Below are positions 21,444 through 43,067 of a DNA stretch of 64,000 bases, piece by piece. Origin of the DNA: Marinibacterium anthonyi (GTDB lineage Bacteria > Pseudomonadota > Alphaproteobacteria > Rhodobacterales > Rhodobacteraceae); the NCBI GenBank assembly GCA_003217735.2, contig CP031585.1, positions 3,087,501-3,151,500 of the forward strand. The letters run 5' to 3'. The translations under genes and the position numbers were made by a program. The notes beneath the pieces are model-generated. The model ran no database searches. It saw only the letters and a program-made list of their open reading frames with translations, and had not been told where the DNA came from. Position 1 is the first letter of the stretch; every line of letters begins with the position of its first letter.

Positions 21444-23165
21444 TTACCTGTCGTCGTCCAGCACGACCTGCGGGTGGTGGGTGCGGGCGTAGGTTTCGGT
21501 GATATAGCCGTCGTCCAGATCGGCCTTCACCGCATCGGCACTGCGCCGCGCGGGATCGCCATAGCCGCCGCCGCCCCCGGTGCGCAGCAGCAGCAGGTCG
21601 CCCTTGGGCATCGGGATCCGCGTCGCCTTGGCGCTGGCTTCGACCGTGCCATCGGCGCGTTCGATCCTGACCGCGTTGGCCCGCCCGCCGATGCCGCCTT
21701 GCAGGCCCCATGGCCCGTTCAGCGTGCGTTCGACCGAGGTGGTGACATAGGTGTCCTCCAGCATGCGAAACGCGAAATCGACGCCCATGCCGCCGCGCCA
21801 TTCGCCGGGGCCGCAGCTGTCGGGGACCAGTTCCATCTTTTCCACCAGCCAGGGGTTGCGGCTTTCCCAGACCTCGACGGGCGAAAACCGCGTCGCGCTT
21901 TCCGAGATATGCAGCATGGTCCCCCCGTCGTGCCCCTTCCACGCGCCCTGCCCCACGGGATGGGGCGCGCCGTCGGCCCAGGGTTCGCCCGTGGCCTCGC
22001 GCGTGCCCCAGTGGACCAGCGAACAGATGCAGCCGCCCGACATGGCCGGCACGATGTCCGGCAAGGCCTTGGACAGTGCCTGATAGACCGCCTCGATCGC
22101 CTGCACGGCGGGCCAGCCGTACAGGAAACAGGGCGCGGGCGGCAGCGGATGGAACATGGTTCCCGGCCTGGTGACCACCTCGATGGCGCGGAAATGGCCT
22201 TCGTTCGGCGCCTCGCCCATGCCGGCCAGCATGGAAATGGCGACGCGGCTGGTGGAGATGGTCGACGGCACCGGGCAGTTGATCGGGCCGGCCTGTTGCG
22301 GCGGCGCGGCGGAATAATCCAGCCTGACGCTGTCACCTTCGACGATCACGGTGATGTCGAAGGGCACCTGCGCCGTTTCCACCCCGTTGTCATCCATCAC
22401 GCCGGATCCCACGTAGGTCCCGTCCGGGATCCCCGCGAAGTAGTTGCGCACGACCCGTTCGCCATGGTCGAACATCTGTTCCACCGCGCGCCCGAAATCC
22501 TCGACCCCGTGCCTTGCGACGACCTCCAGAAGCGCTCGCACGCCGGTTCGCACGCCGACGATCTCGGCATTCAGGTCCCCGGCGATCATCTTCGGCACAC
22601 GGGAATTGGCCAGGATGATCCGGTAGATCGGATCGACCATCTTGCCCCTCTCCACGATCTTCACGCCGGGATAGATCGTGCCCTCCTGGTAGACGTCGAT
22701 CGTGTCGGTGCAATAGGGATCCTTGCCCGCGATATCCAGCCAGTGACCCTTGATCGCGGCATAGCCCACCAGTTCGCCCTCGTGGAAAGCGGGCATGACC
22801 ACGGCCAGGTCCTGCGGATGTGACCCGGTGCCATAGGGCCAGTTGTAGATGATGATGTCGCCGTCGTTGAGGTTCTCAACCCCGCCGATGCCCTTCACCG
22901 CCTCGATGACGCAGAAGTTCAGCGTGCCCATGAACATCGGCAAGGATGGCGCCTGCGCCAGCAGCCGCACGTCCTTGTCGTAAAGCGCCACGGCGAAATC
23001 CAGTACCTCGTAGATCACCGGGCTGAAGGCGGTGCGCACAAGCGCGCGCTTCATCTGGTTCGCGGCCGAGTTCAGCGCGTGGCGGACAACCTCGGTGGTG
23101 ATCGGGTCGACCGGATCGGCGGGCGTGGACCGGGACTGGCCGGCCTTGTGGAGGATGGTGTCCAT
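21444..23165 (-). CDS. hyuB: Hydantoinase/oxoprolinase subunit B (HyuB-1)
   Basis: A 573-residue HyuB-family protein, the partner of HyuA in ATP-dependent cleavage of cyclic amides such as hydantoins or 5-oxoproline. Hallmarks: DPITTEVVRHALNSAANQMK, LVRTAFSPVIYEVLDFAVAL, NDGDIIIYNWPYGTGSHPQD, GHWLDIAGKDP and the C-terminal glycine-rich RTGGGGGYGDPARR followed by the usual tail AVKADLDDGYITETYA. It follows hyuA-1 after three bases and is the last gene of the long operon. The family also includes subunits of acetone and acetophenone carboxylases, so a ligase/carboxylase role is not excluded. Confidence 0.9.
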   Translation of the reverse strand: MDTILHKAGQSRSTPADPVDPITTEVVRHALNSAANQMKRALVRTAFSPVIYEVLDFAVALYDKDVRLLAQAPSLPMFMGTLNFCVIEAVKGIGGVENLNDGDIIIYNWPYGTGSHPQDLAVVMPAFHEGELVGYAAIKGHWLDIAGKDPYCTDTIDVYQEGTIYPGVKIVERGKMVDPIYRIILANSRVPKMIAGDLNAEIVGVRTGVRALLEVVARHGVEDFGRAVEQMFDHGERVVRNYFAGIPDGTYVGSGVMDDNGVETAQVPFDITVIVEGDSVRLDYSAAPPQQAGPINCPVPSTISTSRVAISMLAGMGEAPNEGHFRAIEVVTRPGTMFHPLPPAPCFLYGWPAVQAIEAVYQALSKALPDIVPAMSGGCICSLVHWGTREATGEPWADGAPHPVGQGAWKGHDGGTMLHISESATRFSPVEVWESRNPWLVEKMELVPDSCGPGEWRGGMGVDFAFRMLEDTYVTTSVERTLNGPWGLQGGIGGRANAVRIERADGTVEASAKATRIPMPKGDLLLLRTGGGGGYGDPARRSADAVKADLDDGYITETYARTHHPQVVLDDDR

Positions 23166-23168
23166 GGC

Positions 23169-25190
23169 TCAGATCTCCTTCCGCTCGAGGATCAGTTCGC
23201 CGCGCGCGCCCGGACGGATCGTCCAGCCGGCATCGACGTAGAGGGTCGAGGTGGTTTCGGTGACGATGCAGGGACCGTCCGTCGGCCCCGCAAAGGTGTT
23301 GCGCGGGAGGATGGCAAAGGGCGTGCGGTGGCCCATGGCAAAGGAATGGGCGTTGACGGTTCGCGTCTCGGGCGGGGCCGGGTCCGGGTCGGGCACGCGG
23401 ACCTCGCGGGGGGCCAGCGCCTCGGTATAGGTGGCGCGGACGGCGACGGTTTCGACCTGCTCGTCCAGCGTGCCGCCAAAGGTCTTGTCGTATTCCGTGG
23501 CGAAGGTCTCCGCGATCTGGCCCGCATCCGGTGCGATCCGGACGCCGTCCAGGGCCAGATCCACCGACAGCGAATGTTCCTGCCCCTTGTAGCGCAGGTC
23601 CAGCCTTGCCGACGGCGTGGCCTTGGCGGGCCGTGCGCCCCGGGCTTCAAGGTCACTCAACAGCGTGTCCAGCAGCATCTGCGCGCGGATCAGACCGTCG
23701 GTATTCAGATCGGTCACCAGCGTGCGCGCCGCCGATTGCACCCGGTCGGCGCCCAGCAGCCCCCAGGCCGAGAAATTCCCCGCGAACGGCGGCAGCACGA
23801 TGCGGTTCATGCCCAGGTCATCGGCCAGCAGGCAGGCCATCAGCGGCCCGGCGCCGCCGAACGGCAGCAATGTCATGCCGCGCGGGTCCAGCCCCTGTTC
23901 GACGGTCACCTCGCGCATCGCGCCCCCCATGGCGGCGGCGGCAATGCGCAACACGCCGGTGGCGACGGTTTCCACGTCCTGTCCCAGCCCTTCGGCAACC
24001 GCCGTCAGCGCCCGTTCGGACGCCGCGATGTCCAGCGTGATGCCCGAAGCCAGTTCCCCCGGCCCCAGCATCCCCAGGTAGGCCGCCGCGTCGGTCAGCG
24101 CGGGCTGCGTGCCGCCCTTGCCATAACAGGCCGGCCCCGGCACGGCGCCCGCCGATTGCGGCCCGACACGCATCAGCCCGCCGCGGTCCACATGCGCCAG
24201 CGACCCGCCGCCCGCCCCGATCGAACGCACGTCGACCCAGGTGGTCTGTACCGGCATCCCGTCGATGACGCCTTCGTACAGCACCTGCGGTTCACCGCCG
24301 AGGATCAGCGCGGTGTCGAAGCTGGTGCCGCCCACATCCGCCGTGATCAGCGCGTCGATACCAAGGGATCGCGCGAATTCCGAAGCCCCGTGCGCGCCGC
24401 CCACGGGGCCGGACATGATGGTCTCGAACGGGCGGTCCTCGGCCTCGGCAAAGGTCATCGACCCGCTGCCGGACCGGGTGATCAGCGCCATGCCGGTGAA
24501 CCCCAGATCGCGCAGTCGGGTTTCGAGTCGGCGCAGGTAGTTCGACATGCGGCCGCGCACGAAGGCGTCGATGACCGTGGTCGAGGTCCGTTCGTATTCG
24601 CGGTATTCGCCCGAAATCCGGTGCGACAGCGAAATGCCGCCCTCGAAGCCTTCCTCGCGGATCAGCCGTTCCACCAGCAGTTCATGGTCGGGATTGGCCC
24701 AGGCGTTGATCAGCGCCACGGCGATCGCGTCCACGTTGAACCCCATCAGCGCGCGGATCGCCGCCCGCGTGGCCTGTTCATCCACCGGCGCACGGACGGA
24801 CCCGTCCGCCATGATCCGCCCCGGCACCTCAAGCCGGCGGCGACGGGGCACCAGCGCGGGGGGCTGTTCCCAGAACAGGTTGTACATTTCGGCCCGGTCG
24901 CCGCGCCGGATTTCCAGCACGTCGCGGAAGCCTTGCGTCGCCAGCAACCCCACCTCGGCCCCGCGCCGTTCCAGAAGCGCGTTGAGGCCGACGGTGGTGC
25001 CGTGCAGGAAATACGACGCCTCGGCGATGACCTTTTCCGGCACATGGGCCTGAACGGCGTGGATCACGCCTTCCTCGGGCGCGTGGGGGACGGTGGGGAC
25101 CTTGCCTTCGACGGTCTCGCCGGTGGTTTCGTCGTAATAGATCAGGTCGGTGAAGGTGCCACCGATGTCGACGCCGATGCGTGTTGCCAC
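23169..25190 (-). CDS. hyuA: Hydantoinase/oxoprolinase subunit A (HyuA-1)
   Basis: A 673-residue HyuA-family subunit with the actin-like ATPase fold. The phosphate-binding motif at the N-terminus is RIGVDIGGTFTDL. Others are HGTTVGLNALLERRGA, GFRDVLEIRRGDR, the metal-site region SGPVGGAHGASEF, ADVGGTSFDTALI and SIGAGGGSLAHVD. The start is GTG at 25190 with AAGGA eight bases upstream; the frame stays open much further upstream, but that part lies over the ABC ATPase gene in another frame. It is co-transcribed with hyuB-1 and the dipeptide-type importer, which likely supplies the substrate. The precise substrate is unknown. Confidence 0.9.
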   Translation of the reverse strand: MATRIGVDIGGTFTDLIYYDETTGETVEGKVPTVPHAPEEGVIHAVQAHVPEKVIAEASYFLHGTTVGLNALLERRGAEVGLLATQGFRDVLEIRRGDRAEMYNLFWEQPPALVPRRRRLEVPGRIMADGSVRAPVDEQATRAAIRALMGFNVDAIAVALINAWANPDHELLVERLIREEGFEGGISLSHRISGEYREYERTSTTVIDAFVRGRMSNYLRRLETRLRDLGFTGMALITRSGSGSMTFAEAEDRPFETIMSGPVGGAHGASEFARSLGIDALITADVGGTSFDTALILGGEPQVLYEGVIDGMPVQTTWVDVRSIGAGGGSLAHVDRGGLMRVGPQSAGAVPGPACYGKGGTQPALTDAAAYLGMLGPGELASGITLDIAASERALTAVAEGLGQDVETVATGVLRIAAAAMGGAMREVTVEQGLDPRGMTLLPFGGAGPLMACLLADDLGMNRIVLPPFAGNFSAWGLLGADRVQSAARTLVTDLNTDGLIRAQMLLDTLLSDLEARGARPAKATPSARLDLRYKGQEHSLSVDLALDGVRIAPDAGQIAETFATEYDKTFGGTLDEQVETVAVRATYTEALAPREVRVPDPDPAPPETRTVNAHSFAMGHRTPFAILPRNTFAGPTDGPCIVTETTSTLYVDAGWTIRPGARGELILERKEI

Positions 25191-25207: not shown

Positions 25208-26026
25208 TCAGGCTGCGGGCGCGCGGCCTGTGAGGCGGATCGCGTCGCGCATGGCTTCTTCCTCGGCGCTGGCCACGGGGACGGCGCCGATCAATTGCCG
25301 GGTGAATTCGGCCTTCGGAGCCGAGAAGATCTGGTCGGCCAGCCCGGTTTCGACCCGGCGGCCTTCGGCAAAGACACTGATCCGGTCCGCCAGCGCGCGC
25401 ACGACGGCCAGGTCGTGGGTGATGAAGACATAGGTCAGCCCCCTGTCCTGGCGCAGCTTGTCCAGCAGCTTCAGCACGCGCGCCTGCACCAGCACGTCCA
25501 GCGCCGAGGTCGGTTCGTCCAGCACGATCAGGTCCGGTTCCGCCGCCAGCGCCCGCGCGATGGCCACCCGCTGGCGCTGGCCGCCGGACAGCGACGCGGG
25601 CGTGCGGCGGGCCATTTCGGGTTCCAGCCCCACCTCGACCAGCAGGTCTTCGACCTTGCGGGCCCGATGACGCGCCTCGCCCAGCCCGTGCACATCCATC
25701 GGCAGGCGGACCGACTTGCCGATCCGCCGCCGCCCGTTCAGCGACGACAGTGGGTTCTGCTGCACCAACTGGATCCGCCGTTTCATCGCACGCGGCCGGT
25801 CCTGGCGCAGGGGCTTGCCGTCGAAATGCATCTCGCCAAAGGTCGAGGAATGGATGCCCAGGATGATATTGGCCAGCGTCGACTTGCCGGATCCGCTTTC
25901 GCCGACGACCGCGTGGCATTCGCCCCGGCGCACGTCGAAATCGACGTCGTCCAGCGCCTTCACCTCGTGGTCGCCGGCCTTGAAGACCTTGGACAGCCGC
26001 GTCGTGCGCAGGAGGACATCGCTCAT
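25208..26026 (-). CDS. dppF: Dipeptide-type ABC ATPase (DppF/OppF)
   Basis: A 272-residue ATPase: Walker A GESGSGKST, signature [16 protein letters not shown], Walker B LIVLDEPTSALD and switch YVFITHDLAVV. The Q-loop region LVQQNPLSSLNGRRRIG is typical of peptide/nickel importers. It overlaps the DppD-like gene by four bases and is followed after 17 bases by hyuA-1. Confidence 0.9.
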   Translation of the reverse strand: MSDVLLRTTRLSKVFKAGDHEVKALDDVDFDVRRGECHAVVGESGSGKSTLANIILGIHSSTFGEMHFDGKPLRQDRPRAMKRRIQLVQQNPLSSLNGRRRIGKSVRLPMDVHGLGEARHRARKVEDLLVEVGLEPEMARRTPASLSGGQRQRVAIARALAAEPDLIVLDEPTSALDVLVQARVLKLLDKLRQDRGLTYVFITHDLAVVRALADRISVFAEGRRVETGLADQIFSAPKAEFTRQLIGAVPVASAEEEAMRDAIRLTGRAPAA

Positions 26027-26907
26027 GCGTTCACCTCGTCGGGTTCGCCGCAGCCGTCGTGCACGATCAGCGGATCGCGGAAGGCGTCGGAATGTTCGGG
26101 AAGGTCCGGCAGGCCGCCGCCGATCAGTTTCGGCGCGGCCGACAGCAGCGCGCGCGTATAGGGGTGGCGCGGGTCGGCAAAGAGCTGGTCCGTGCGCCCG
26201 TGTTCCACGATCTTGCCCCGGTAGATCACGTAGACCCGGTCGGCGAATTCGCGCACGACCGACAGGTTGTGCGAGATAAACAGCACCGCGGTCCCCTTCT
26301 GCGTCACCAGGTCGTCCATCAGCCGCAGGGTCTGGGCCTGCACGGTCACGTCCAGCGCGGTGCCGGGTTCGTCCGCCAGCAGCAGTTCGGGTTCGTTGGC
26401 CAGCGCCATGGCGATCATGACGCGCTGGTTCATGCCGCCCGACAGCTGGAACGGATAGCTGTCCAGCGCGCGCGCCGGGTCGGGAATATGCACTTCGGCC
26501 AGCGCCTGCATCGCCCGGTCGCGGGCCTGCGTCTCTGTCACCCTTTGGCCGCCGGCGCGCAGGACCTCGGCGAAGATCTCACCGATGCGGAAGACCGGGT
26601 TCAGGGCGGATGTCGGATCCTGGAAGATCATCGTCACCCGGTGGCCGCGTTCGGGCGCCATGGCCTGGGGCGCGCGGATCAGGTCATGGCCGACCACCTC
26701 GATCAACCCCGACGTCAGCGTGCCGCGTTCCTGTTGCAGCCGCCCCAGCGCCAGTTGCGCGGTCACCGATTTGCCGGACCCGCTTTCGCCGACCAGCGCG
26801 ACCTTTTCCCCGGCGTTCACATGCAGCGAGATGCCATGCAGCACCTGCGCCGTCTGGCGGCCCTTGCGGAAGCCCAGCTTCAGGTCGCGTATCTTGAGAA
26901 CGGCCAT
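26023..26907 (-). CDS. dppD: Dipeptide-type ABC ATPase (DppD/OppD)
   Basis: A 294-residue ATPase: Walker A GESGSGKSV, Q-loop MIFQDPTSALNPVFRIGE, signature QLSGGMNQRVMIAMALANEP and Walker B LLLADEPGTALD. It is slightly shorter than usual at the C-terminus and lacks the cysteine-rich end often found in OppD. The start at 26907 (MAVLKIRDLKLGFRKGRQTA) is the family start, one base after the preceding permease stop. Confidence 0.9.
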   Translation of the reverse strand: MAVLKIRDLKLGFRKGRQTAQVLHGISLHVNAGEKVALVGESGSGKSVTAQLALGRLQQERGTLTSGLIEVVGHDLIRAPQAMAPERGHRVTMIFQDPTSALNPVFRIGEIFAEVLRAGGQRVTETQARDRAMQALAEVHIPDPARALDSYPFQLSGGMNQRVMIAMALANEPELLLADEPGTALDVTVQAQTLRLMDDLVTQKGTAVLFISHNLSVVREFADRVYVIYRGKIVEHGRTDQLFADPRHPYTRALLSAAPKLIGGGLPDLPEHSDAFRDPLIVHDGCGEPDEVNA

Positions 26908-26908: not shown

Positions 26909-27769
26909 TTACACCTCTGCGTCGAAGGCTTCGCGCAGGCCGTCGCCCAGCAGGTTGAAGCCAAGCACCAGGATCATGATCGCAAGCGCGGGGAAGATCG
27001 ACAGCCACCAGGCGTCGGGCATGTATTTCGCCCCGTCCGCCACCATCGACCCAAGGTCCGGTGTCGGCGGCTGCACCCCAAGGCCCAGGAAGGACAGCGA
27101 CGACACCATCAGCACGACGAACCCGATATCCAGCGTCAGCTTGGTCAGCACTGAAGGCGCGCAATTGGGCAGGATCTCGCGGAACATGATGTGCAGCGGC
27201 GAGGCCCCGATCACCTCGGCCGCCAGCACGTAGCCTTCGCGCGCCTCGGCGCGCACCACGTTGTAGACCAGCCGCGTGTACCAGGGCCACCACATGACGG
27301 TCACGGCCAGCATGGCGTTGGTCAGGGTCGCGGGCAGGAAGCCCATGATCGCCATGGCCAGCACCAGCGGCGGGATCGCCAGGAAGATATCGGTCAGGCG
27401 CATCAGGACGAATTCCACCCAACCGCCCATGTAACCGGCGAACAGGCCAAGGATCACGCCGACGGGCATCGAGATCGACAGCACCAGGACGGCCATCATC
27501 AGCGACAGGCGGAAGCCATAGATGATCCGCGTGAGCAGGTCGCGCCCGATGGTGTCGGTGCCGAACCAGTGCGCGGCGGAGGGCGCCTGGTTGATGGCGG
27601 TGAAATCGCCGATCGGGCCGACATGGGCGGGGTACGGTGTGATCACATCGGCGCACAGCGCGAGGCCGACGCAGAAGACGACCAGCACCAGGCCCAGGAT
27701 CGAGATCGGGTTCGAGCGGAATTCGGTCCAGGCGACGGACGGGGATACGGACGGGGATTTCGTGCTCAT
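26909..27769 (-). CDS. dppC: Dipeptide-type ABC permease (DppC)
   Basis: A 286-residue permease with five to six helices, an N-terminal WTEFRSNPISILGLVLVVF segment, the DppC motif HWFGTDTIGRDLLTRIIYGF and the coupling loop EVIGASPLHIMFREILPN. It overlaps DppB by four bases. Part of the peptide/amide importer within the hyu operon. Confidence 0.92.
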   Translation of the reverse strand: MSTKSPSVSPSVAWTEFRSNPISILGLVLVVFCVGLALCADVITPYPAHVGPIGDFTAINQAPSAAHWFGTDTIGRDLLTRIIYGFRLSLMMAVLVLSISMPVGVILGLFAGYMGGWVEFVLMRLTDIFLAIPPLVLAMAIMGFLPATLTNAMLAVTVMWWPWYTRLVYNVVRAEAREGYVLAAEVIGASPLHIMFREILPNCAPSVLTKLTLDIGFVVLMVSSLSFLGLGVQPPTPDLGSMVADGAKYMPDAWWLSIFPALAIMILVLGFNLLGDGLREAFDAEV

Positions 27770-28800
27770 GCCTTCGCCTTTCGTTCGGCCAGCCGGATGC
27801 GGGGATTGATGATCGACACGATCAGGTCGACGATCAGGTTGGTCACCAGGAACATCGCCGCGATCACCAGGACGACGCCGACGATGGCGTCCAGATCCTT
27901 GCGCAGGATCACCTCGACCCCGTAACGCGACAGGCCGGGCCAGACAAACACCCGTTCCACCAGGAATGCGTTGGCCAGCATGGCGGCAAAATCCAGGCCC
28001 ACGATGGTCAGCGTCGGGATCAGCGACGGCCAGAAGGCAAAGCGGCGCGCGATGCGGCTTTCGCGGAACCCATAGGCACGGGACATGTCGATGAAGGGCT
28101 TGCGGTAGGTTTCGATCATCGACGACCGGGTCAGGCGCGCGGTCTGCCCGATCCCGGACATGGCCAGCGCCGTGGCGGGCAGGACCAGGTGATACAGCGC
28201 GTCGAGAAAGGTGGACAATTGCCCCGTCATCAGCGCGTCGAGCGTGTAGAACCCGGTGATGTGCGTCGGCGCGTCGATGCCGTTGGACAGGCGTCCTTCA
28301 AGCGGGAAGATCGGCCAGATATAGGCGAATGTCAGCTGCAGCACGACGCCCCAGACAAAGGCGGGCGTACAGACCGCGATGACCGAGATCAGACGGGCCA
28401 GATGGTCGGGCCAGCGGCGCTGCAGCCGCGCGGCAAGGCGACCCAAGGGCAGGCCCAGCAGGATCATCATGGCGCCGGCATACAGCACCAGTTCCAGCGT
28501 CGCGGGGAAATAGGTGGCGATGTCGCGGGTCACGGGGCGCTTGGTGTAAAGCGATGTGCCCAGGTCCCCGTGCAGCAGGTCCCGCAGGAACCAGCCGTAT
28601 TGCACGACGATAGGGTCGTTCAGGTGCCGCGCCTCGCGCAGCGCATCGACCTGCGCCTGGCTGGCATTGGGCCCCAGCGCGATGCGCGCGGGATCGCCCG
28701 GCACGATGCGGGCAATGACGAAGATCAGGACCGACACGCCGATCAGCACGAGGACCGAAATGGCGAGGCGTTGCAGCAAAAGGCGAAAAACGGGGGACAT
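27766..28800 (-). CDS. dppB: Dipeptide-type ABC permease (DppB)
   Basis: A 344-residue permease with six helices. The N-terminus MSPVFRLLLQRLAISVLVLI is typical. Hallmarks are RIVPGDPARIALGPNASQAQ, LLHGDLGTSLYTKRPV and the coupling loop DMSRAYGFRESRIARRFAFW. GGAGG lies eight bases upstream, inside the end of a 37-codon ORF. It forms the channel with DppC. Confidence 0.92.
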   Translation of the reverse strand: MSPVFRLLLQRLAISVLVLIGVSVLIFVIARIVPGDPARIALGPNASQAQVDALREARHLNDPIVVQYGWFLRDLLHGDLGTSLYTKRPVTRDIATYFPATLELVLYAGAMMILLGLPLGRLAARLQRRWPDHLARLISVIAVCTPAFVWGVVLQLTFAYIWPIFPLEGRLSNGIDAPTHITGFYTLDALMTGQLSTFLDALYHLVLPATALAMSGIGQTARLTRSSMIETYRKPFIDMSRAYGFRESRIARRFAFWPSLIPTLTIVGLDFAAMLANAFLVERVFVWPGLSRYGVEVILRKDLDAIVGVVLVIAAMFLVTNLIVDLIVSIINPRIRLAERKAKA

Positions 28801-28917: not shown

Positions 28918-28940
28918 CTTGTTCTCCAGATAGTCCGGGT

Positions 28941-28964
28941 GGCCCCGGGGGATCCCCCGGGGCC
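28941..28964 (-). terminator. Intra-operon stem-loop after dppA
   Basis: A perfect palindrome with arms GGCCCCGGGG and CCCCGGGGCC around GATC, eight bases after the dppA stop. There is no T-run. It likely stabilises the dppA mRNA or partly terminates transcription before the permease genes. Confidence 0.65.
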
Positions 28965-34271: not shown

Positions 34272-35926
34272 GCGCTTCCTTCATATCCGTAGATGTCGCG
34301 CGCCTGTTCGGCGCTGATCAGCCCGTCACGCAGGTCTGCCGCGACCTTGTCGCGCGGGCGGTCCCTGGGGTCGCCCAGGCCGCCGCCATTGCCTGTGATC
34401 ACACGGATCACGTCGCCCGGCCTCGTCTTCTTGTTCGACACGAAGGCGAATTCGCTGGCCTCGCCTTCGACCGGCATGAAGCGCACGTAATTCGCGCTGC
34501 CGTCGCGGCCCCCGTCCAAGCCCCAGGCAGGGAATTTCGACCGGGTGTAGCCGATGGTGACATAGCCGTCTTCGGACCGGGTGCGATAGTCGATCACCAC
34601 GCCCCGCCCGCCGGTTTCGCGCCCCTCGCCGCCGGGGGCGGTGTTCAGCTCCATCCGGTCGATGATCACGCCATTGCGGGCCTCGTTGATCTCGGCCGGG
34701 CAATTGTAGGTCTCGCCATGGAAGGACGAGAAGATGGCCGAGTTGCCATCGCGCCCGGCGGCCGCGCCCCAGCCCCCCACCTGCGGTTCGATGATGGTGT
34801 AATGGCGGCCCGTATCGGGGTGAACGCCGCCGATGAAGGTGCCGCAAACACTGGCAAAATGGCCCGCACCCAGCCGGTCGGCCATGTGCGGCGCCAGGCA
34901 GCGCCACATGATGTCATAGGCGCGCAGTTCCAGTTCATAGTAGAACCCCATCGCCGCCGGTTCCTGCGCGTCGAAGACGGATCCCTTGCGGGTCAGCAAT
35001 TCGATGGGCCGGAAGCTGCCCGCGTTGGCCAGCCCGCGCGGATCGGTCAGCGATTTGAACAGCATCTGGGCGGCGACCATCACGCCATCCCGGCAGGAAT
35101 TGGTCGGGCCCGTCGACTGGTCCGGGTTGTCGCGCAGATCGACGATGAACCTGTCATCCGTGATCTCGATTTTCACGTTGAAGATCGATCCGTCGTCCTG
35201 TTCCTCGTCCAGCTCGAACCGCCCCTTGGGCAGATCGGCCAGCGCCGTGCGCGAGACCTTTTCGCCGTGGTCCATGAAGTCGGTCAGCGCCTGTTCGAAG
35301 GCCGCGACCCCGTATTTCCCGGCCAGCTGGCCCAGCCGCCGCGCGCCGACCCGCACCGAGGAGATCGCGGCCCAGACGTCGCCTTCCAGCACGTCGGGCA
35401 TCCGGCTGTTGACCTTGAGGACCTCGAACACCGACGCGATCGGCTTGCCCGCCTCGACCAGCTGGATCGCGGGCAGGCGCAGGCCTTCCTGGAAGATCTC
35501 GGTCGCCTCGCCGGTCAGGGATCCGGGCGCCATGCCGCCCACGTCCGAGTTATGCGCGATATTGGCCGTCCAGGCGATCAGCTTGCCATCCGCGAACACC
35601 GGCATGGCGACGATGATGTCGTTCAGGTGCGTCACGCCGCCGTAGAACGGATCGTTCGTGGCATAGACGTCGCCGTCCTTCAGCACCTCGGGCGGGAACT
35701 TGGCCGCGATGACCTTCACCGCCTTGTCCAGCACGCCGACAAAGGCCGGGATACCCGCGCCGGACGACGCGATCTCGCCCTGCGCGTCCATGATGCCGGT
35801 GCCCATGTCCAGCACCTCGTAGATGATCGACGACATGGCCGTCTTCTTCATCGCCACGAACATCTCGTCCGCGGCGGCCTGCAGCGAATTCTGGATGATC
35901 TCGGAGGTGATCGGATCAAGCGCCAT
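34268..35926 (-). CDS. hyuB: Hydantoinase/oxoprolinase subunit B (HyuB-3)
   Basis: A 552-residue HyuB with the full family pattern: DPITSEIIQNSLQAAADEMF, MKKTAMSSIIYEVLDMGTGI, ATNDPFYGGVTHLNDIIVAM, FQEGLRLPAIQLVEAG, VCGTFIGGVHPDTGRHYTII and the normal C-terminal end TGNGGGLGDPRDRPRD followed by DLRDGLISAEQARDIYGYE. It starts on the last base of hyuA-2, so HyuA-2 and HyuB-3 are the obvious subunit pair. The paralogue HyuB-2 lies two genes downstream. Confidence 0.92.
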   Translation of the reverse strand: MALDPITSEIIQNSLQAAADEMFVAMKKTAMSSIIYEVLDMGTGIMDAQGEIASSGAGIPAFVGVLDKAVKVIAAKFPPEVLKDGDVYATNDPFYGGVTHLNDIIVAMPVFADGKLIAWTANIAHNSDVGGMAPGSLTGEATEIFQEGLRLPAIQLVEAGKPIASVFEVLKVNSRMPDVLEGDVWAAISSVRVGARRLGQLAGKYGVAAFEQALTDFMDHGEKVSRTALADLPKGRFELDEEQDDGSIFNVKIEITDDRFIVDLRDNPDQSTGPTNSCRDGVMVAAQMLFKSLTDPRGLANAGSFRPIELLTRKGSVFDAQEPAAMGFYYELELRAYDIMWRCLAPHMADRLGAGHFASVCGTFIGGVHPDTGRHYTIIEPQVGGWGAAAGRDGNSAIFSSFHGETYNCPAEINEARNGVIIDRMELNTAPGGEGRETGGRGVVIDYRTRSEDGYVTIGYTRSKFPAWGLDGGRDGSANYVRFMPVEGEASEFAFVSNKKTRPGDVIRVITGNGGGLGDPRDRPRDKVAADLRDGLISAEQARDIYGYEGSA

Positions 35927-38031
35927 CAGACGGTCTCCATCGCGGGCGTGTCGGCGGGGACCGACAGCAGGATGTGCAGGTTGCCCCAGCGGTCGACCTC
36001 GACCCGGTTGCCGGGGTGGACGACGATGGTGGTGCCCGGGTCCTCGACGATGGCGGGGCCGTCGAAGGACATGCCCGGGGTCAGTTTTTCACCGTCATAG
36101 ATCGCCGCGTCGTGGATGCCTTCCATGGCAAAATCGACCGCGCGGGTGGCTTTCAGGGCGCCGCTGGCGGGGGCGTCCGTCAGGGTATGTTCGACCGGCT
36201 TCAGCTTGCCGACCTCGGCCGAGGCGATGACATGCAGGCCGACCATTTCGACCGGGGCCTTCAGGCGATAGGTATATTCCTTCTCGTAGGCCTCGTGGAA
36301 ATCGGCGGCGATCCGCGCCAGCTTGTCTTCGGTCACGGCGCCTTCGATGGGGACCTCGACGGTGTGTTCCTGGTTCTGGTAGCGGAACTTGCCGAAGCGT
36401 TTCAGCATGACCTTGTCCGCCGCCGCGCCTTCGGCCGCGAATTGCGCGCGCGCCTGGGCTTCGGTCTCGGCGAACCGGGCCTCCATCCCCTGGGCCGCGC
36501 CCTTGCCCATGTCGGCCAGCGCGGTCAGGAAATAGTCGCGCCGCAGGTCCGACATCATCATCCCCCAGGCCGAGAAAACCGATGCACCGGTGGGGATGAC
36601 CACCTTCTTCACGCCCAGCTCCTGCGCCAGGGCCACGGCGTGCATCGCGCCGCCGCCGCCAAAGGCCACCAGCACGAAGTCGCGCGGGTCGTGGCCCCGG
36701 TTCAGCGACACCAGCTTCAGCGCGTTGACCATGTTGTTGTTGGCAATCCGCACGATCCCCTGCGCGGCCTGATCGCAGTCGACGCCCAGATCGTCGGCCA
36801 CCTGTTGCAGCGCCTTGCCGGCGGCGTCCATATCCGCATCGACAGAACCGCCGCAGAAATAGTCGCGGTTGATCCGCCCCAGCCAGAGGTTCGCGTCCGT
36901 CGTCGTCGCCTGCGTGCCGCCCTTGCCATAGGCTGCCGGCCCGGGCATGGCGCCGGCCGATTGCGGCCCGACATGCAGCTTGCCGAAATCGTCGACCCAG
37001 GCGATCGACCCGCCGCCATTGCCGATCTCGACCAGGTCCACCACCGGGACCATGATCGGATACCCGGCGCTGGTCCGGTCGCGTTCGATCCAGTAGTCGG
37101 TCATGATCTTGACCTCGCCGTCCTCGATCAGCGAACACTTGGCCGTGGTTCCGCCGATATCCAGCGCCAGCACGTTGGGTTCGCCGATCAGCTTGCCCAG
37201 TTCCGCCGCGCCCCAGAAGCCCGAGGCCGGGCCGCTTTCGACCATGGTGATCGGGATGCGCGCCGTGGCCTCCAGGCTGTCCACGCCGCAATTGGATTGC
37301 ATCACGTAAAGCTGGCCCTTGAACCCGCCATCGGTCATGCCCGCCTCAAGCCGGCGCAGGTAGCGTTCGGCGACCGGTTGGACATAGGCCGACAGCACGG
37401 CGGAATTGCCGCGTTCGTATTCGCGCCATTCACGGCTGATCTGGTGGGACCCCACGGCCGAAACCTCGGGCCAGAGCGTGCGGATCGCGGCCAGAACCGC
37501 CTCTTCATGGGACGGATTGGCGTAGGAATGCAGCAGCGACACGGCGATGGCCTGCACCCCGTCGGCCTTGAAACCGTCAAGGATCGCGGACAGCCCGGAC
37601 AGGTCCAGCGGCTGCGTCTCCTCGCCCTGGTAATTCATCCGCCCCGGCACTTCGCACCGCAGGTAGCGCGGCACGAAAGGTTCGGGTTTCTCATAGTGCA
37701 GGTTGAAGAAATCGGGCCGGTTGCCGCGCGCGATCTCAAGCGTGTCGCGGAAGCCTTCGGTGGTGATCAGCCCGACCTTGACGCCCTTGCGTTCGGTCAG
37801 CGCGTTGATCACGACGGTGGTGCCATGGGCCATGAAATCGACCGTGGCCGGATCCACCCCGCCCTTGGCCAGCACGTTCAGAACGCCCCTTTCGAAATCG
37901 GGCGGCGTGGTGTCGGACTTGGCGGTGGTGATGCGGCTTTCGCCCGTCTCAAGATCCGTTTCGAAACAGACCATGTCGGTGAAGGTGCCGCCCACGTCGG
38001 TGGCCACGCGCTTGGTGCTTTTGCTGGTCAT
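35926..38031 (-). CDS. hyuA: Hydantoinase/oxoprolinase subunit A (HyuA-2)
   Basis: A 701-residue HyuA protein: N-terminal phosphate motif VATDVGGTFTDMVCFE, HGTTVVINALTERKGVKVGL, GFRDTLEIARGNRPDFFNLH, VESGPASGFWGAAELGKLIG, ALDIGGTTAKCSLIEDGEVK and EIGNGGGSIAWVD. The start at 38031 has a very good AGGAGG eight bases upstream; an in-frame extension to 38076 overlaps the GAF gene and was rejected. It overlaps the GAF gene by four bases and hyuB-3 by one. It is the predicted ATPase half of an ATP-dependent amidohydrolase or carboxylase. Confidence 0.92.
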   Translation of the reverse strand: MTSKSTKRVATDVGGTFTDMVCFETDLETGESRITTAKSDTTPPDFERGVLNVLAKGGVDPATVDFMAHGTTVVINALTERKGVKVGLITTEGFRDTLEIARGNRPDFFNLHYEKPEPFVPRYLRCEVPGRMNYQGEETQPLDLSGLSAILDGFKADGVQAIAVSLLHSYANPSHEEAVLAAIRTLWPEVSAVGSHQISREWREYERGNSAVLSAYVQPVAERYLRRLEAGMTDGGFKGQLYVMQSNCGVDSLEATARIPITMVESGPASGFWGAAELGKLIGEPNVLALDIGGTTAKCSLIEDGEVKIMTDYWIERDRTSAGYPIMVPVVDLVEIGNGGGSIAWVDDFGKLHVGPQSAGAMPGPAAYGKGGTQATTTDANLWLGRINRDYFCGGSVDADMDAAGKALQQVADDLGVDCDQAAQGIVRIANNNMVNALKLVSLNRGHDPRDFVLVAFGGGGAMHAVALAQELGVKKVVIPTGASVFSAWGMMMSDLRRDYFLTALADMGKGAAQGMEARFAETEAQARAQFAAEGAAADKVMLKRFGKFRYQNQEHTVEVPIEGAVTEDKLARIAADFHEAYEKEYTYRLKAPVEMVGLHVIASAEVGKLKPVEHTLTDAPASGALKATRAVDFAMEGIHDAAIYDGEKLTPGMSFDGPAIVEDPGTTIVVHPGNRVEVDRWGNLHILLSVPADTPAMETV

Positions 38032-38525
38032 GCGGAAACCTCCTGCGGATTGGCCTTGCGTTCGAGCAGCAGGCAAAGAGCGCCCGGCCCGATGAGCCGC
38101 GCCGCACGCTCGACCCGTTCGGGCGTGTAGTGATGGGCGACATCCAGGCAGTTGAGCGTGCCAAGGACCTCGCCCTGCACGACGACCGGCAGGTTCAGGC
38201 AGCTTTCGAACCCAAGGCTGACGATCAGTTCGTGATCGGGAAAATGCGGCGCGAAATCGGCCGGGACATGGGCGACGAAGGGTTTGTGGTTGTCGAGCAC
38301 CTGCGTCCCCCAGTCGGTCGGCGGCATCGGCTTGGTGCCCCCGGGCGGATATTCGACAGGCATGTTCGACCAGCGGCGGCTGGCCAGCCGGGTCACCGGA
38401 TCAAAGGTCATTACCGTGAACAACGGCGCGCCGATCTCTTCCTGCACCAGCGCGCAGAGGGCCGCGAACATGGTTTCCAGGTCATCGCCGGCAGCGGCTT
38501 GGGCAAAGGTGGTCCAGGCGGTCAT
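38028..38525 (-). CDS. GAF domain protein
   Basis: A 165-residue protein that is a single GAF-type sensor domain (EIGAPLFTVMTFDPVTRLAS, then HELIVSLGFESCLNLPVVVQ and GEVLGTLNCLDVAHHYTPER). There is no kinase, cyclase or DNA-binding part. Its gene overlaps both the XRE-cupin regulator and hyuA-2 by four bases. GAF domains bind small molecules, and stand-alone ones can be enzymes such as free methionine sulfoxide reductase, whose conserved cysteines are not evident here. It may sense the pathway compound. The role is unknown. Confidence 0.85.
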   Translation of the reverse strand: MTAWTTFAQAAAGDDLETMFAALCALVQEEIGAPLFTVMTFDPVTRLASRRWSNMPVEYPPGGTKPMPPTDWGTQVLDNHKPFVAHVPADFAPHFPDHELIVSLGFESCLNLPVVVQGEVLGTLNCLDVAHHYTPERVERAARLIGPGALCLLLERKANPQEVSA

Positions 38526-39187
38526 TCGTTTTCTCCAGCGGCTTCCATCAGGGCGGCTTCGTGTCCGGCATGAGCTCCGGGAATGTCTTCGGCGCGTGCG
38601 ATCCGATCGCCGAAGACATCCATCGTGCAGACATGGAGGATCGCCGTTTCGCTGTCGGTGTGGTTCCAGGTGGAATGCAGCCGCTGGGACGAGAAATGCA
38701 GGCTGTCCCCGGCTTCAAGTTCGATCCGCTGTCCTTCCAGTTCGACGGTCAGCGCGCCTTCGAGCACAAAGAAGATCTCCTCGCCCTCGTGGCTCTGCGG
38801 TTCACTCCGGTACCCCGGCGCCTCGCGGATGATGACGCCGTTCAGGACAGACCCAGCGAAGGTGGTCGAAATCCGTTCATAGGCCGTGGCCTCGGGGCTT
38901 TCCTGCTTCAGCGACAGTTTGCGGCGGGCGTCGTGGCGCGTTGCTTCGGGCGCGGGACCGGATCCGGGCAGCACGTCCTGCACCGCGATGCCAAGCACCG
39001 TGCAGATCCGGTTGAGCGAGGTCAGCGAGGGCACCGCGATATCGCGTTCCGCCTGGCTCATGAAACCGGTGGACAGGCCCGCGCGTTCGGCCACTTCCTG
39101 CAACGTCAGCTTCAGCGCGCGGCGGCGGGCGCGCAGCTTGGCGCCGATCTCCGGCTTGCCGATCTCGTGTTTGTTGTCATCCGCCAA
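38522..39187 (-). CDS. XRE-family regulator with C-terminal cupin domain
   Basis: A 221-residue regulator: an N-terminal helix-turn-helix (about residues 12-70: LRARRRALKLTLQEVAERAG, LSTGFMSQAERDIAVPSLTS) and a C-terminal cupin (about 125-200: SHEGEEIFFVLEGALTVELE, GDSLHFSSQRLHSTWNHTDS). This PuuR-like architecture is common for regulators of amine and amino-acid catabolism, with the cupin as ligand sensor. It is the first gene of the long hyu-dpp operon. The decamer AGTAATACTA lies 17 bases upstream of its start, and a palindromic version lies before the hyuAB fusion gene, so it probably controls both. Confidence 0.92.
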   Translation of the reverse strand: MADDNKHEIGKPEIGAKLRARRRALKLTLQEVAERAGLSTGFMSQAERDIAVPSLTSLNRICTVLGIAVQDVLPGSGPAPEATRHDARRKLSLKQESPEATAYERISTTFAGSVLNGVIIREAPGYRSEPQSHEGEEIFFVLEGALTVELEGQRIELEAGDSLHFSSQRLHSTWNHTDSETAILHVCTMDVFGDRIARAEDIPGAHAGHEAALMEAAGENE

Positions 39188-39203
39188 GAGGCACCCATTT
39201 TTA

Positions 39204-39213
39204 AGTAATACTA
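39204..39213. promoter_or_regulatory. AGTAATACTA half-site upstream of XRE-cupin gene
   Basis: This AT-rich decamer sits in the 85-base gap before the XRE-cupin start, flanked by T/A tracts. It equals one arm of the palindrome at 43108-43132. Confidence 0.6.
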
Positions 39214-39253
39214 AAATTTTGGGGCGGATCGCCCGATTCCGTCAAGGGGGACC

Positions 39254-39279
39254 GCCCAATCAGGCGGCCCAATCAGGCG
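39254..39279. repeat. 13-bp tandem duplication at the end of hyuAB
   Basis: GCCCAATCAGGCG is repeated exactly at 39254-39266 and 39267-39279. The second copy carries the stop codon of the fusion gene. Confidence 0.8.
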
Positions 39280-42200
39280 GCCCTGTCCCTTCTGGCGCTC
39301 AGTTTATAGGCATCCTCGGCCATCCGGGGCGACACGAGCCCCAGCCGCACATCCCGGTCCACCAGGGGCACGGGCCGTTCCTCGGCCGGGCCGAAGCCGC
39401 TGCCGGCGGACAGGATCAGTTCGACCTCGTCGCTCACGTCGCCCAGCGGAAAGATCCCGCCGGTGCCGCAATCCTCGACACCGTTCGCCCGGGCGATCCC
39501 CGCGCGCGCGGTCATGCCCGCCGTGCCGCCCTGCAGCCCGGCAACCGGCAGATCGACACCTTCGGGCGCCACCTGGCAGGTCATCTGCCCGCCCGCATCA
39601 CGCCGACGCACGCGCACCCGCGTCGCCGGGCCGCCGCGCGCGGCACCGGGGCCGCCGCTGTCGGTGACAAAGCCCTTTTCGGCCACGATCACCGGCAGGC
39701 GCTGTTCCAGCAGTTCGATCGACGACGACGCGGCCGAGGTCGGCCACAGCAGCGCGCCGCGCCCGTCCAGCCCCTGCCCGGCCCCCTGCCCGCCGCCCAG
39801 CAGCAGCATCTCCGAGAACGCCGTGCCGTCGGCATCCGTGCCCCAGAAGGTCAGCACGCTGGGCAGGCCGGAATAGGCCCGCACGGCGCCCGGCACGGTT
39901 TCCGCCATGGCGCGGAAGATATTGGGCGAGGAATACCACCCGGTCCTTGTGCGCAATGACACCGGCGCGGGGTGGGCGCAGTTGAGAATGGATTTTTCGG
40001 GCGCTGTCACCGTGAAGGCCCGGTAACAGCCGGCGTTGCCGCGCACGCCGGGCGTCAGCATGCATTTCAGCGGATAGGTCGCGTGCGCTTCGGTATAGCT
40101 CATGGTGCAGTTGATGCCGCCCAGGGGGACCTGCGGCGGGCAGCCTGCGAAATCGACCTCGATCCGGTCGCCATCGACGGTCAGTGACATCGGGAGCGTC
40201 ATCCGCGTGCCCATCGGGTTGAAATCGACGGTCGAGCGGTACGTGCCATCCGGCAACGCCGCGATGGCGGCGCGCATGGCGGCCTCGGATCGGTCCTGCA
40301 GCACGGCGGCCAGCCCGCGCAGGTCGCGCAGACCGTATTCCCCGAGGAAACGCAGCACTTGCGCCGCGCCCCGTGCGTTCGCCGTGACCAGCGAGCGCAG
40401 ATCGCCCAGCACCTGGTTGGGCTCGCGCACATTGTGGAACATCAGGCGGAAGATGTCCTCGTTCTCCTCGCCCCTGCGGACCAGCCGCATCGGCGGGATC
40501 TGCAGGCCTTCCTCGTAGATCTCGTGCGCGGCCAGCCCGTTGCGGGTGCCGCCGATGTCGCCCACGTGACCGACCGTGGCGGTCAGCGCGACAACGCGGC
40601 CGTCCGAGAAGACCGGCGTGACCACGGCGATATCAAAGAGATGGCCGGCGCATTCCCAGGGATCGTTGGTGATATAGACATCACCCTCTGCCATGCTGTC
40701 CGCCGGATAGTGTTTCAGGATATGGCGTACGGCACGCGGCAGGGTGATGTTGAAGACGGGCATGACGCGCGCCGAATGGGCGATGGTTTCGCCGGTCGGA
40801 TCCAGCAGCGCGCAACCGAAATCCTGGCTTTCCGAGATGATCAGCGAAAAGGCCGTGCGGCAGACGGTCTGCCACATGTCCTCGGTCACGGTCACCAGCC
40901 GCGCCCACATGATTTCCAGCGCGATGGGATCGGCTTCCAGCCGGGCCTTCGCCTCGGCCAGGGGCAAGTCTCCGGTCACCTTCACCTCGGCTTCGGCGCC
41001 CAGACCCACGGTGATGCGGATATTGCCGGCGGCGTCCAGCGTGGCGCGGTCGCCCTTGGGGACCAGCGTGGTGGATTCCGGTTCCTCGATGATCGCGGGG
41101 CCGGCGATCTCGTGGCCGACGATCAGGTCGGCGCGCAGGTGGACCGAGGCCGGCTCCCATCCCGCGCCGGTCCAGACATTGCGGGTGTGGGCCTTCGGCG
41201 TGGCCTCGGGCGCGGTTGCGCCGCCGACCGACAGCGCGGGTGCCGGACCCCGGGCGCGCAGGCGCAGCGACAGGATCTCAAGCGGTTCGTCCGCCGGACG
41301 GCGGGAATAGCGATCCATGTAGACGGTTTCGAACACCGCGCGCAGGGCGGGTTCGGCGGCGGCATCCAGCGGGTCGTCGGGCAGCGGAACGGCGACCACG
41401 TGCAATTGCCCCTTCAGGCGCATGTCGAGCGTGACATCGAAGGCGGCGTCTTGCGCTGCGATCCCGGCGGCGGTCAGATCGGCCAGGGCTTCGTCGCGCA
41501 TCTGGGCCTGAAGGGATGCGATGCCACCTGACAGCGCCTCGTCGATCGACATCGGGCGCGAGCGGACAAGATCGACGGCCTGCGGGGCCGACAGGAACCC
41601 GAAGGCCGAGGCGGCGCCGGACGCGGGGGGGATGATGACGTCGGAAACGCCCAGGATCCGGGCGACACGGGCGGCAAAGGCGGGGCCAGCGCCGCCAAAG
41701 CCGATCATGGCGTAGCGGCGGGGGTCGCGGCCCTTTTCGACCATGTGGATCTGTGCGGCGGAGGCCATGGATTCCGCGACCGTCTGGTGGATGCCCCAGG
41801 CGGCTTCCTCAGTGCTCAGGCCCAGCGGCCCGGCGATGGCCTGCATGGCGGTTTCGGCGGCGGCGCGGTCCAGCGCCATCTTGCCGCCCAGGAACCGATC
41901 GGGATCATAGTAGCCCAGCAGGACCGAGGCGTCGGTGACCGTGGGGTCGATGCCGCCGCGCCCATAGCAGGCAGGTCCCGGCGCCGCGCCAGCGGACCTG
42001 GGCCCGACCTTCAAAAGGCCGACCCCGTCGATCGAGGCGATGGACCCGCCCCCTGCCCCGATCTCGATCATGTCGACCGTGGGCGCGCGGACCGGCAGGC
42101 CCGAACCGTTCTTGAACCGGTGTTCCCGGCCCGCTTCCAGCACCGGCGCGATATGGGGCGCGCCGGTCTCGATCAGGCAGGCCTTGGCGGTGGTGCCGCC

Positions 42201-43067
42201 CATGTCAAAGCTCAGCGCGTCCGACATCCCCGCCGCGCGGGCGAACCACGCCGTGGCCAGCGCACCGCCGGCAGGCCCGCTTTCCAGCAGGCGGATCGGC
42301 AGGGCGCGGGCGATATCCAGCGACACCAGGCCACCGGCCGAGGTCATCAGCCGCAGCGCGCCGGCAAAGCCGCGTCCGGTCAGTTCGGTTTCCAGTCGGG
42401 CCAGGTAATCGGCCATCAGCGGCTGGACAAAGGCATTGGCGCAGGTGGTCACGAAGCGCGGATATTCCGAGATTTCACCGACCACGGCCGACGACACCGA
42501 CACGGCAAGATCGGGATAGGCGGCGCGGACGATCTCGGCCGCGCGCAATTCGTGCGCCGGGTTGCGGTAGGAATGCATGAAACAGATCGCGATGGCGGTG
42601 CAGCCCTCGGCCACCAGCACGTCGAGTTCCGCCTTCACCCCGGCTTCATCCAAGGGCGTCACTTCGCGCCCCAGGGCGTCGATGCGGCCCTGCACCTCGC
42701 GGCGCAGATCGCGGGTGACCAGCGGCTCGGGGAACGCCAGGTCCAGGTCGTAGATGTCGTAGCGCTGTTCGTTGCCGATCTCGAGCGTGTCGCGAAAACC
42801 CGTGGTGGTCAGCAGGCCGACCTTTGCGCCGTTGCGTTCGATCACCGCATTGGTCACCAGCGTGGTGCCGTGCACGATCTCGGCCACGTCCGCCATGCTC
42901 AGGCCTTCGCGGGCCAGCAGGTCCACCAGCCCGGTCAGGGCCCCGCGCGACGGATCGTCCGGGGTGGTCAGCGTCTTGTGCAGCGCGGTGCGGCCCGCGT
43001 CGGGGGCGCTGAGGAAGAGGTCCGTGAAGGTTCCGCCGATATCGATCCCGACCCTGAACTGCGACAT
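39273..43067 (-). CDS. Fused HyuA-HyuB hydantoinase/5-oxoprolinase
   Basis: A 1264-residue protein. The first part (about residues 1-690) is a complete HyuA ATPase domain: RVGIDIGGTFTDLFLSAPDA, HGTTLVTNAVIERNGAKVGL, GFRDTLEIGNEQRYDIYDLD, SFDMGGTTAKACLIETGAPH and EIGAGGGSIASID. The second part (about 700-1264) is a complete HyuB domain: LEIMWARLVTVTEDMWQTVC, TNDPWECAGHLFDIAVVTPV, LAAHEIYEEGLQIPPMRLV and SGPGAARGGPATRVRVRRRD-like sequence in the C-terminal part. This is the organisation and length of ATP-dependent 5-oxoprolinases. The start at 43067 has AAGGAGAG upstream. The gene has its own promoter with a palindromic operator and lies just upstream of the XRE-led operon. 5-oxoproline is the likeliest substrate, but related hydantoins are possible. 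Confidence 0.9.
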   Translation of the reverse strand: MSQFRVGIDIGGTFTDLFLSAPDAGRTALHKTLTTPDDPSRGALTGLVDLLAREGLSMADVAEIVHGTTLVTNAVIERNGAKVGLLTTTGFRDTLEIGNEQRYDIYDLDLAFPEPLVTRDLRREVQGRIDALGREVTPLDEAGVKAELDVLVAEGCTAIAICFMHSYRNPAHELRAAEIVRAAYPDLAVSVSSAVVGEISEYPRFVTTCANAFVQPLMADYLARLETELTGRGFAGALRLMTSAGGLVSLDIARALPIRLLESGPAGGALATAWFARAAGMSDALSFDMGGTTAKACLIETGAPHIAPVLEAGREHRFKNGSGLPVRAPTVDMIEIGAGGGSIASIDGVGLLKVGPRSAGAAPGPACYGRGGIDPTVTDASVLLGYYDPDRFLGGKMALDRAAAETAMQAIAGPLGLSTEEAAWGIHQTVAESMASAAQIHMVEKGRDPRRYAMIGFGGAGPAFAARVARILGVSDVIIPPASGAASAFGFLSAPQAVDLVRSRPMSIDEALSGGIASLQAQMRDEALADLTAAGIAAQDAAFDVTLDMRLKGQLHVVAVPLPDDPLDAAAEPALRAVFETVYMDRYSRRPADEPLEILSLRLRARGPAPALSVGGATAPEATPKAHTRNVWTGAGWEPASVHLRADLIVGHEIAGPAIIEEPESTTLVPKGDRATLDAAGNIRITVGLGAEAEVKVTGDLPLAEAKARLEADPIALEIMWARLVTVTEDMWQTVCRTAFSLIISESQDFGCALLDPTGETIAHSARVMPVFNITLPRAVRHILKHYPADSMAEGDVYITNDPWECAGHLFDIAVVTPVFSDGRVVALTATVGHVGDIGGTRNGLAAHEIYEEGLQIPPMRLVRRGEENEDIFRLMFHNVREPNQVLGDLRSLVTANARGAAQVLRFLGEYGLRDLRGLAAVLQDRSEAAMRAAIAALPDGTYRSTVDFNPMGTRMTLPMSLTVDGDRIEVDFAGCPPQVPLGGINCTMSYTEAHATYPLKCMLTPGVRGNAGCYRAFTVTAPEKSILNCAHPAPVSLRTRTGWYSSPNIFRAMAETVPGAVRAYSGLPSVLTFWGTDADGTAFSEMLLLGGGQGAGQGLDGRGALLWPTSAASSSIELLEQRLPVIVAEKGFVTDSGGPGAARGGPATRVRVRRRDAGGQMTCQVAPEGVDLPVAGLQGGTAGMTARAGIARANGVEDCGTGGIFPLGDVSDEVELILSAGSGFGPAEERPVPLVDRDVRLGLVSPRMAEDAYKLSARRDRAA

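Follow-up and report, generated by a model that had tools for sequence, protein, structure and literature searches.

The stretch examined here, called the window, comprises 64 kb of the 6.8-Mb Marinibacterium anthonyi genome, and all coordinates are window positions. From 39187 down to 21444 the list of open reading frames (ORFs) and the sequence gave 15 ORFs, all on the minus strand, with neighbours overlapping or at most 54 bases apart. A fused hyuAB gene (43067-39273) lies upstream of this run, its end 85 bases ahead of the start of the first gene, XRE. An earlier note on this DNA had described the run as a hyu-dpp operon for the import and ring-opening of cyclic amides; all its genes and the fused gene are present, and the junctions were confirmed. 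Named domains were found in 14 of the 15 ORFs, a tiny ORF being the exception, and DppF was judged from its sequence and open frame. The features are as follows.

43104..43136, strand unassigned: paired operator-like sites before the fused gene (motif matches)
39273..43067, minus strand: fused HyuA-HyuB, 1264 aa (PF05378, PF01968, PF19278, PF02538)
39200..39245, minus strand: promoter-like site (39245-39216) and operator-like site (39200-39214) before XRE-cupin (scans)
38522..39187, minus strand: XRE-cupin regulator (HTH_31/HTH_3 and Cupin_2; the start codon TTG is the longest reading)
38028..38525, minus strand: single-domain GAF protein (PF01590)
35926..38031, minus strand: HyuA1, predicted ATP-using subunit (PF05378, PF01968, PF19278)
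34268..35926, minus strand: HyuB1, predicted metal subunit (PF02538)
33165..34271, minus strand: M24 dipeptidase/prolidase-like enzyme (PF00557)
32165..33163, minus strand: MDR-family reductase, accessory (PF08240, PF00107)
30552..32165, minus strand: HyuB2, predicted second metal subunit (52% identity to HyuB1; metal site)
28972..30555, minus strand: family-5 solute-binding protein (SBP), DppA-like (PF00496)
28938..28964, minus strand: hairpin just past the SBP stop (folding)
28804..28917, minus strand: tiny ORF, probable remnant of a deleted PF01177 racemase (leader and start codon alignment with locus L072; residues of locus L074)
27766..28800, minus strand: DppB permease (PF00528, PF19300)
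26909..27769, minus strand: DppC permease (PF00528, PF12911)
26023..26907, minus strand: DppD ATPase (PF00005, PF08352)
25208..26026, minus strand: DppF ATPase (open frame, Walker-type sequence; strong homologues adjoin DppD in relatives)
23169..25190, minus strand: HyuA2, accessory (PF05378, PF01968)
21444..23165, minus strand: HyuB3, accessory (PF02538)

Along the run the genes overlap by 4 bases (XRE/GAF), 4 (GAF/HyuA1), 1 (HyuA1/HyuB1) and 4 (HyuB1/M24); there follow a gap of 1 (M24/MDR), overlaps of 1 (MDR/HyuB2) and 4 (HyuB2/SBP), gaps of 54 (SBP/tiny ORF) and 3 (tiny ORF/DppB), an overlap of 4 (DppB/DppC), a gap of 1 (DppC/DppD, with the DppD start taken at 26907), an overlap of 4 (DppD/DppF) and gaps of 17 (DppF/HyuA2) and 3 (HyuA2/HyuB3). 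A consensus scan of 21300-39300 detected two promoter-like sites (mean of shuffles 2.1), one directly before XRE and one within HyuB3, and three terminator-like sites (mean of shuffles 8.6), only one of which, within the SBP gene, is on the operon strand. The scan gave no obvious break that would split the run, and from its layout the 15-gene run probably forms a co-regulated gene set or operon. In the window a strong hairpin with no T tract follows the SBP stop, and a strong hairpin stands there in all eight folded sequences, the window included (z from -1.9 to -7.9). Hairpins after a binding-protein gene can let that protein be made in excess.

All three HyuA proteins of the window keep both phosphate motifs (DxGGTxTD and DxGGT), and all four HyuB proteins, including that of the fusion, keep the Asp-His-Asp-His metal site, as expected for the ATP-dependent lactamase family. 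Among HyuA1 rows the first phosphate motif is kept in 46 of 48 (the other two being gaps) and the second in all 48, and the metal site is found in 51/51 HyuB1 and 41/41 HyuB2 rows, window included. In passages of PMC8453981 on the caprolactamase CapAB, mutation of the phosphate or metal sites abolished all or nearly all activity. HyuA2 shares 36% identity with HyuA1, and HyuB3 30-32% with HyuB2 and HyuB1; HyuA2-HyuB3 and the fusion, at 27-38% identity to HyuA1 or HyuB1/HyuB2, may broaden the substrate range. A quick tree of 98 HyuB rows, in which win_B3, L102_B3 and L150_FB are long branches of unsure placement, separates a HyuB1 group (50 rows, support 81) from a HyuB2 group (41 rows, support 99), which indicates that the duplication is old. 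We measured the C-termini where a glycine motif was recognisable (27 HyuB1 and 30 HyuB2 rows, the others being dropped): HyuB1 continues for 26-34 residues past the motif in 26 of 27 rows, HyuB2 for at most 10 in 25 of 30, and the HyuB2 of the window has 22, dissimilar to the HyuB1 end. The M. anthonyi genome holds 13 HyuA-family and 13 HyuB-family matches, of which 3 and 4, respectively, lie in this region.

The importer consists of a family-5 SBP, two permeases and two ATPases in the order of DppABCDF, with DppF recognised from sequence and synteny. Arg355 and Asp408 of DppA are taken here to hold the dipeptide termini, and are sites where 8Z1Z and 8Z1Y differ; the SBP of the window has a gap at Arg355 and Arg at the Asp408 position. 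Across 39 SBP rows the latter is Val in 27, Arg in 6, Leu in 3, another residue in 3 and Asp in none. The M24 enzyme resembles dipeptidase/prolidase structures, its closest solved relatives including PepE (4EGE, 201 bits). Its D225, D236, H300, E329 and E343, presumably the metal ligands of the family, are each present in at least 90% of 97 rows, and the metallodipeptidase ligand set thus appears complete. The MDR reductase would have an accessory role.

To compare gene order, named genomes were scanned with the M24 protein and the best 80 of 81 loci were kept (L numbers denote loci). The nearest by M24 were a Rhodobacteraceae metagenome-assembled genome (MAG; 91%), Marinibacterium profundimaris (90%) and Salipiger abyssi (85%). 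HyuA1 and HyuB1 occur on the strand of M24 in 44 of the 80 loci, hereafter hyu-bearing. These carry GAF in 40 cases, DppB, DppC, DppD and DppF in 39 each, SBP in 37, HyuB2 in 36, MDR in 9, XRE in at least 13, HyuA2 in at least 4 and HyuB3 and the fusion in at least 3 each, the last four counts being lower bounds because many loci end early. HyuA2 homologues follow DppF in L072, L074, L075 and L076; HyuB3 occupies the operon slot in at least two loci, and its third match, in L102, lies elsewhere. The core of GAF, DppBCDF, HyuA1, HyuB1 and M24, all of window type, is complete in 36/80 loci, of which 31 also have HyuB2. In 30 of the 36 the importer genes stand ahead of the hyu genes, and in the other 6 (L072-L077, the kin of the window) they stand behind them. 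The hosts include genera of the Rhodobacterales and Hyphomicrobiales as well as a Granulosicoccaceae MAG (L103).

The blocks thus stand together in other genomes, as the operon reading of the earlier note demanded. In the own family of the organism the arrangement is uncommon: among 149 genomes an M24 orthologue (43-59% identity) was found in 19, with HyuA1 and HyuB1 alongside in four (L053, L055, L060 and L061). The exact 15-gene set is not supported as a unit, given the low counts of MDR, HyuA2, HyuB3 and the fusion. Judged by gene content in relatives, the 15-gene run elaborates locally on a conserved cassette, of which MDR, HyuA2-HyuB3, the fusion and a racemase are variable parts. A search of open-licence PubMed Central papers found no cassette of this composition. 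As a separate observation, nine loci (L059, L063, L065, L136, L139, L142, L144, L145 and L146) hold a distinct cassette without hyu genes, made up of a divergent Dpp importer, XRE, SBP, M24 and mostly GAF.

The racemase was discovered by reading the open frames of seven chosen loci; grouping the unmatched ORFs nearby into clusters had yielded largely antisense noise and was set aside. A PF01177 racemase is present in 32 of the 44 hyu-bearing loci, in 28 between HyuB1 and M24, in three (L072, L075 and L076) between SBP and DppB, and in L135 elsewhere; that of L072, L075 and L076 is a more distant member (143-152 bits). The SBP-DppB gap of the window, L073 and L074 holds a short ORF only, and the window operon has no intact racemase. 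The short ORF of L074 starts with the first residues of the racemase, and those of the window and L073 keep the leader and start codon, which align with the intact L072 gene, the rest having diverged. The tiny ORF, listed by the earlier note as a gene, is by its position, leader and few residues probably the deletion scar of an Asp/Glu-family (PF01177) racemase. A functional small protein is not preferred, since the leader and start align with the L072 racemase and the peptides of the window and L073 diverge after few residues; a role in translational coupling is possible.

The best PDB match of the racemase in relatives is OpaE (9QBX, 119 bits), with allantoin racemase 3QVJ at 65 bits, and it reaches no NCBIfam cut-off. 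Residues were mapped in this analysis from the PDB-match alignment to allantoin racemase. The catalytic Cys85 and Cys191 are kept in 35/35 rows; the Asn12-equivalent position is Val, Leu or Ile in 32 of the 35 and Asn or Asp in none, the Thr118 position is Val in 31 and the Thr119 position Gly in 33. According to passages of PMC12661438, Asn/Asp12 is found in 100% of allantoin-hydantoin racemases, and of the NozR-like enzymes 44% have Ile/Val at this site and 79% have Thr/Ser at the pocket site that follows. Its two cysteines and the hydrophobic residue that stands where Asn/Asp12 would be make the racemase look OpaE/NozR-like and unlike that of classical hydantoin clusters, and the 79% figure makes it fit OpaE more than NozR. 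According to passages of PMC10156859 a diketopiperazine is isomerised by NozR, another member of the family. Elsewhere in the M. anthonyi genome there are seven PF01177 matches, three of which (L152, L153 and L155) have the hydantoin-type NPNS motif.

The operator-like motif TTTAGTATTRCTWAAA is located both before XRE-cupin and before the fused hyuAB. With at most one mismatch TAGTATTRCT gave three matches in the window (0.22 expected), one ahead of XRE and two ahead of the fusion. With at most two mismatches WTAGTATTRCTWAAA gave four matches in the whole genome, every one at the XRE or fusion upstream sites; the control pattern (WTAGTATTRCTWAAA read backwards) gave 12, so that what counts is where the matches lie and how exact they are, and not how many there are. 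A scan of 99 related loci (1.82 Mb) for TTTAGTATTRCTWAAA with at most two mismatches gave 19 hits where about one was expected; 17 of these fall at XRE or the fusion and come from seven loci (L073, L074, L075, L080, L088, L119 and L124). In L080 the motif falls within the initial 82 bases of the open frame of XRE, a frame whose start codon is not fixed, and on the fusion side L073 and L074 have the motif and L075 a degenerate site that falls outside two mismatches. Where XRE adjoins GAF and upstream DNA is included, 7 of 10 loci carry it. The promoter-like site before XRE stops just short of the motif, which would fit repression. From the shared motif the fused hyuAB probably belongs to the same regulon as the XRE-headed operon, and XRE-cupin is the candidate repressor of both promoters.

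The modelled GAF protein (pLDDT 91) has sensory GAF domains as nearest folds among the matches listed (best 50 of 1079), and we suggest it as a candidate ligand sensor. An enzymatic role for GAF was considered and rejected, as no PDB sequence match was found at E 0.01 and the listed nearest folds are sensory. We also observed two Mesorhizobium soli loci (L119:4763-7277 and L124:8543-11071) with a perfect operator motif, XRE and GAF beside M24, without HyuA1; the regulator/operator pair may thus control other enzymes.

Taken together, we tentatively read the locus as a catabolic regulon for 2,5-diketopiperazines or very similar cyclic amides, a reading to which we give somewhat less than an even chance. 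SBP-DppBCDF would import the ring, HyuA1 would spend ATP to activate a ring amide, and HyuB1 and/or HyuB2, perhaps sharing HyuA1, would hydrolyse the activated amide at the metal site to a linear dipeptide, which the M24 enzyme would split to amino acids. An OpaE/NozR-like epimerase would, in many relatives, interconvert ring isomers, its gene having probably been deleted in the lineage of the window, where two extra putative lactamase units, HyuA2-HyuB3 and the fused HyuAB, are present. XRE-cupin, with GAF perhaps as co-sensor, would repress both promoters at TTTAGTATTRCTWAAA. Import of a small ring without free termini, optional alpha-carbon epimerisation, ATP-driven opening and dipeptide cleavage would together match diketopiperazines best. 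The import and ring-opening system of the earlier note is the best-supported reading, and of the substrates that it proposed, cyclic dipeptides are favoured over hydantoins: the racemase of relatives is OpaE-like without the hydantoin residues, the SBP lacks the DppA residues, the M24 ligands are kept and no carbamoylase domain is seen among the scanned operon proteins. A passage of PMC6061476 suggests that many genes annotated as oxoprolinase may encode lactamases or cyclic dipeptide hydrolases.

Several results weigh against this reading. The HyuA1-HyuB1 pair is missing in 36 of the 80 M24 loci, 14 of which are under 15 kb; these 36 have no window-type DppB, DppC or DppF, and hold DppD in 4, GAF in 8, XRE in 9, HyuB2 in 3 and the racemase in 2. 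Twelve hyu-bearing loci, including the nearest kin of the window (L073 and L074), have no racemase, which is thus not essential, and HyuB2 is missing in 8 of the 44 and so is not required everywhere. The racemase has Val at the Thr118 position, where NozR-like enzymes, going by the excerpted figures, mostly keep Thr/Ser. Asp408 is absent from many family-5 binding proteins, and its absence here is therefore no proof of a cyclic ligand. At two mismatches the operator motif is absent in 3 of the 10 testable XRE loci (L060, L076 and L077). The carbamoylase domain is absent among the scanned proteins of the operon, but relatives and the rest of the genome were not searched.

Catabolism of hydantoins, N-methylhydantoins or ureides is an unlikely alternative, in which HyuAB would give an N-carbamoyl amino acid, the racemase of relatives would equilibrate the isomers and M24 would be an unusual carbamoylase or side peptidase. 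N-methylhydantoinase 7HK5 is the closest solved relative of HyuA1 (426 bits) and of the fusion, which it matches over its whole length (587 bits), and PF01177 includes hydantoin racemases. A carbamoylase and a racemase of the hydantoin type would be expected for hydantoin use, however; the scanned operon proteins lack the former, in the racemase of relatives the Asn and Thr residues that bind hydantoin are missing, and M24 looks dipeptidase/prolidase-like. Less likely still are pyroglutamyl compounds or lactams, with HyuAB as a 5-oxoprolinase or lactamase and M24 trimming a peptide. Caprolactamase is an ATP-dependent lactam hydrolase according to passages of PMC8453981, and the best NCBIfam models for the HyuA and HyuB proteins are its subunits; the scores are nevertheless far under the 1000-bit cut-off of these equivalogs (NF050156/NF050157), at 533 for HyuA1 and 226 for HyuB1 and at most 533 and 238 for any HyuA and HyuB, and achiral lactams need no OpaE-type epimerase. 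An ATP-dependent carboxylase of the acetone/acetophenone type, supplied by the peptide-type importer, shares the superfamily and gives weaker Apc and Acx subunit matches, but is very improbable, as HyuA1 scores 426 and 387 bits to the hydantoinase and the lactamase CapA against 263 and below for Apc/Acx-type proteins, and the dipeptidase and peptide importer would be left unexplained.

Outside the operon, a LysR regulator (20467-21372) lies on the same strand about 70 bases downstream of HyuB3, and past it an ABC importer with SBP_bac_8 at 19147-20418, an ATPase within 18081-19469 and a permease within 17161-18282. The fused hyuAB is preceded upstream by an RND pump with a HlyD-type adaptor (43270-47757) and a GMC oxidoreductase (47918-49534). 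On the minus strand a DEAD-box helicase (13320-15065) and an aldehyde dehydrogenase (14924-16348) have overlapping open frames, so one start is probably placed too early.

Diketopiperazines are abundant natural compounds resistant to peptidases, and to our knowledge few enzymes are known for ATP-driven ring opening of small cyclic peptides. A passage of PMC3852281 says that ring opening, which yields linear dipeptides, is carried out "by unknown enzymes". Should the diketopiperazine reading be true, one operon supplies candidates for the uptake of the ring, its epimerisation and ATP-driven opening, and the cleavage of the dipeptide, its predicted operator makes an inducer screen simple, and the lactamase/carboxylase superfamily gains an unusual subunit set of one A and two B. 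We further speculate, while regarding it as somewhat unlikely, that a diketopiperazine regulon is spread across alphaproteobacteria, with a new form of ATP-dependent amide hydrolase in which HyuA1 serves both HyuB1 and HyuB2, and with every step from import to cleavage under one XRE-cupin repressor.

Among known systems, the DppABCDF dipeptide importer is matched in component types and gene order (SBP 99 bits to DppA, 1DPP), but the SBP of the window does not keep Arg355 and Asp408. The classical hydantoin cluster hyuABCE, whose layout we take to include an N-carbamoyl amino acid amidohydrolase, shares hyuA, hyuB and, in relatives, a PF01177 racemase; the present operon differs in having no carbamoylase domain, an OpaE-like racemase in relatives, a dipeptide-type importer and an M24 enzyme. 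Acetophenone carboxylase 5L9W belongs to the same superfamily and also has extra paralogous subunits, its two HyuA-like chains (B and b) being mirrored in the window by a duplicated HyuB. At the last metal position the fused N-methylhydantoinase 7HK5 aligns Gln, unlike the His of the window HyuB proteins. The OpaE/NozR epimerases, as far as the excerpts of PMC12661438 and PMC10156859 go, resemble the PF01177 racemase of relatives, with two catalytic cysteines and OpaE as best PDB match, but are biosynthetic, whereas this racemase lies within a putative import and hydrolysis cassette of which the window keeps a remnant only. The caprolactamase CapAB of Pseudomonas jessenii (6YRA; passages of PMC8453981 and PMC6061476) has HyuA/HyuB-type subunits and the same phosphate and D-H-D-H motifs; the window differs from it by its far-below-cut-off scores and by setting one HyuA beside two HyuB paralogues, together with an importer, a dipeptidase, GAF and XRE.

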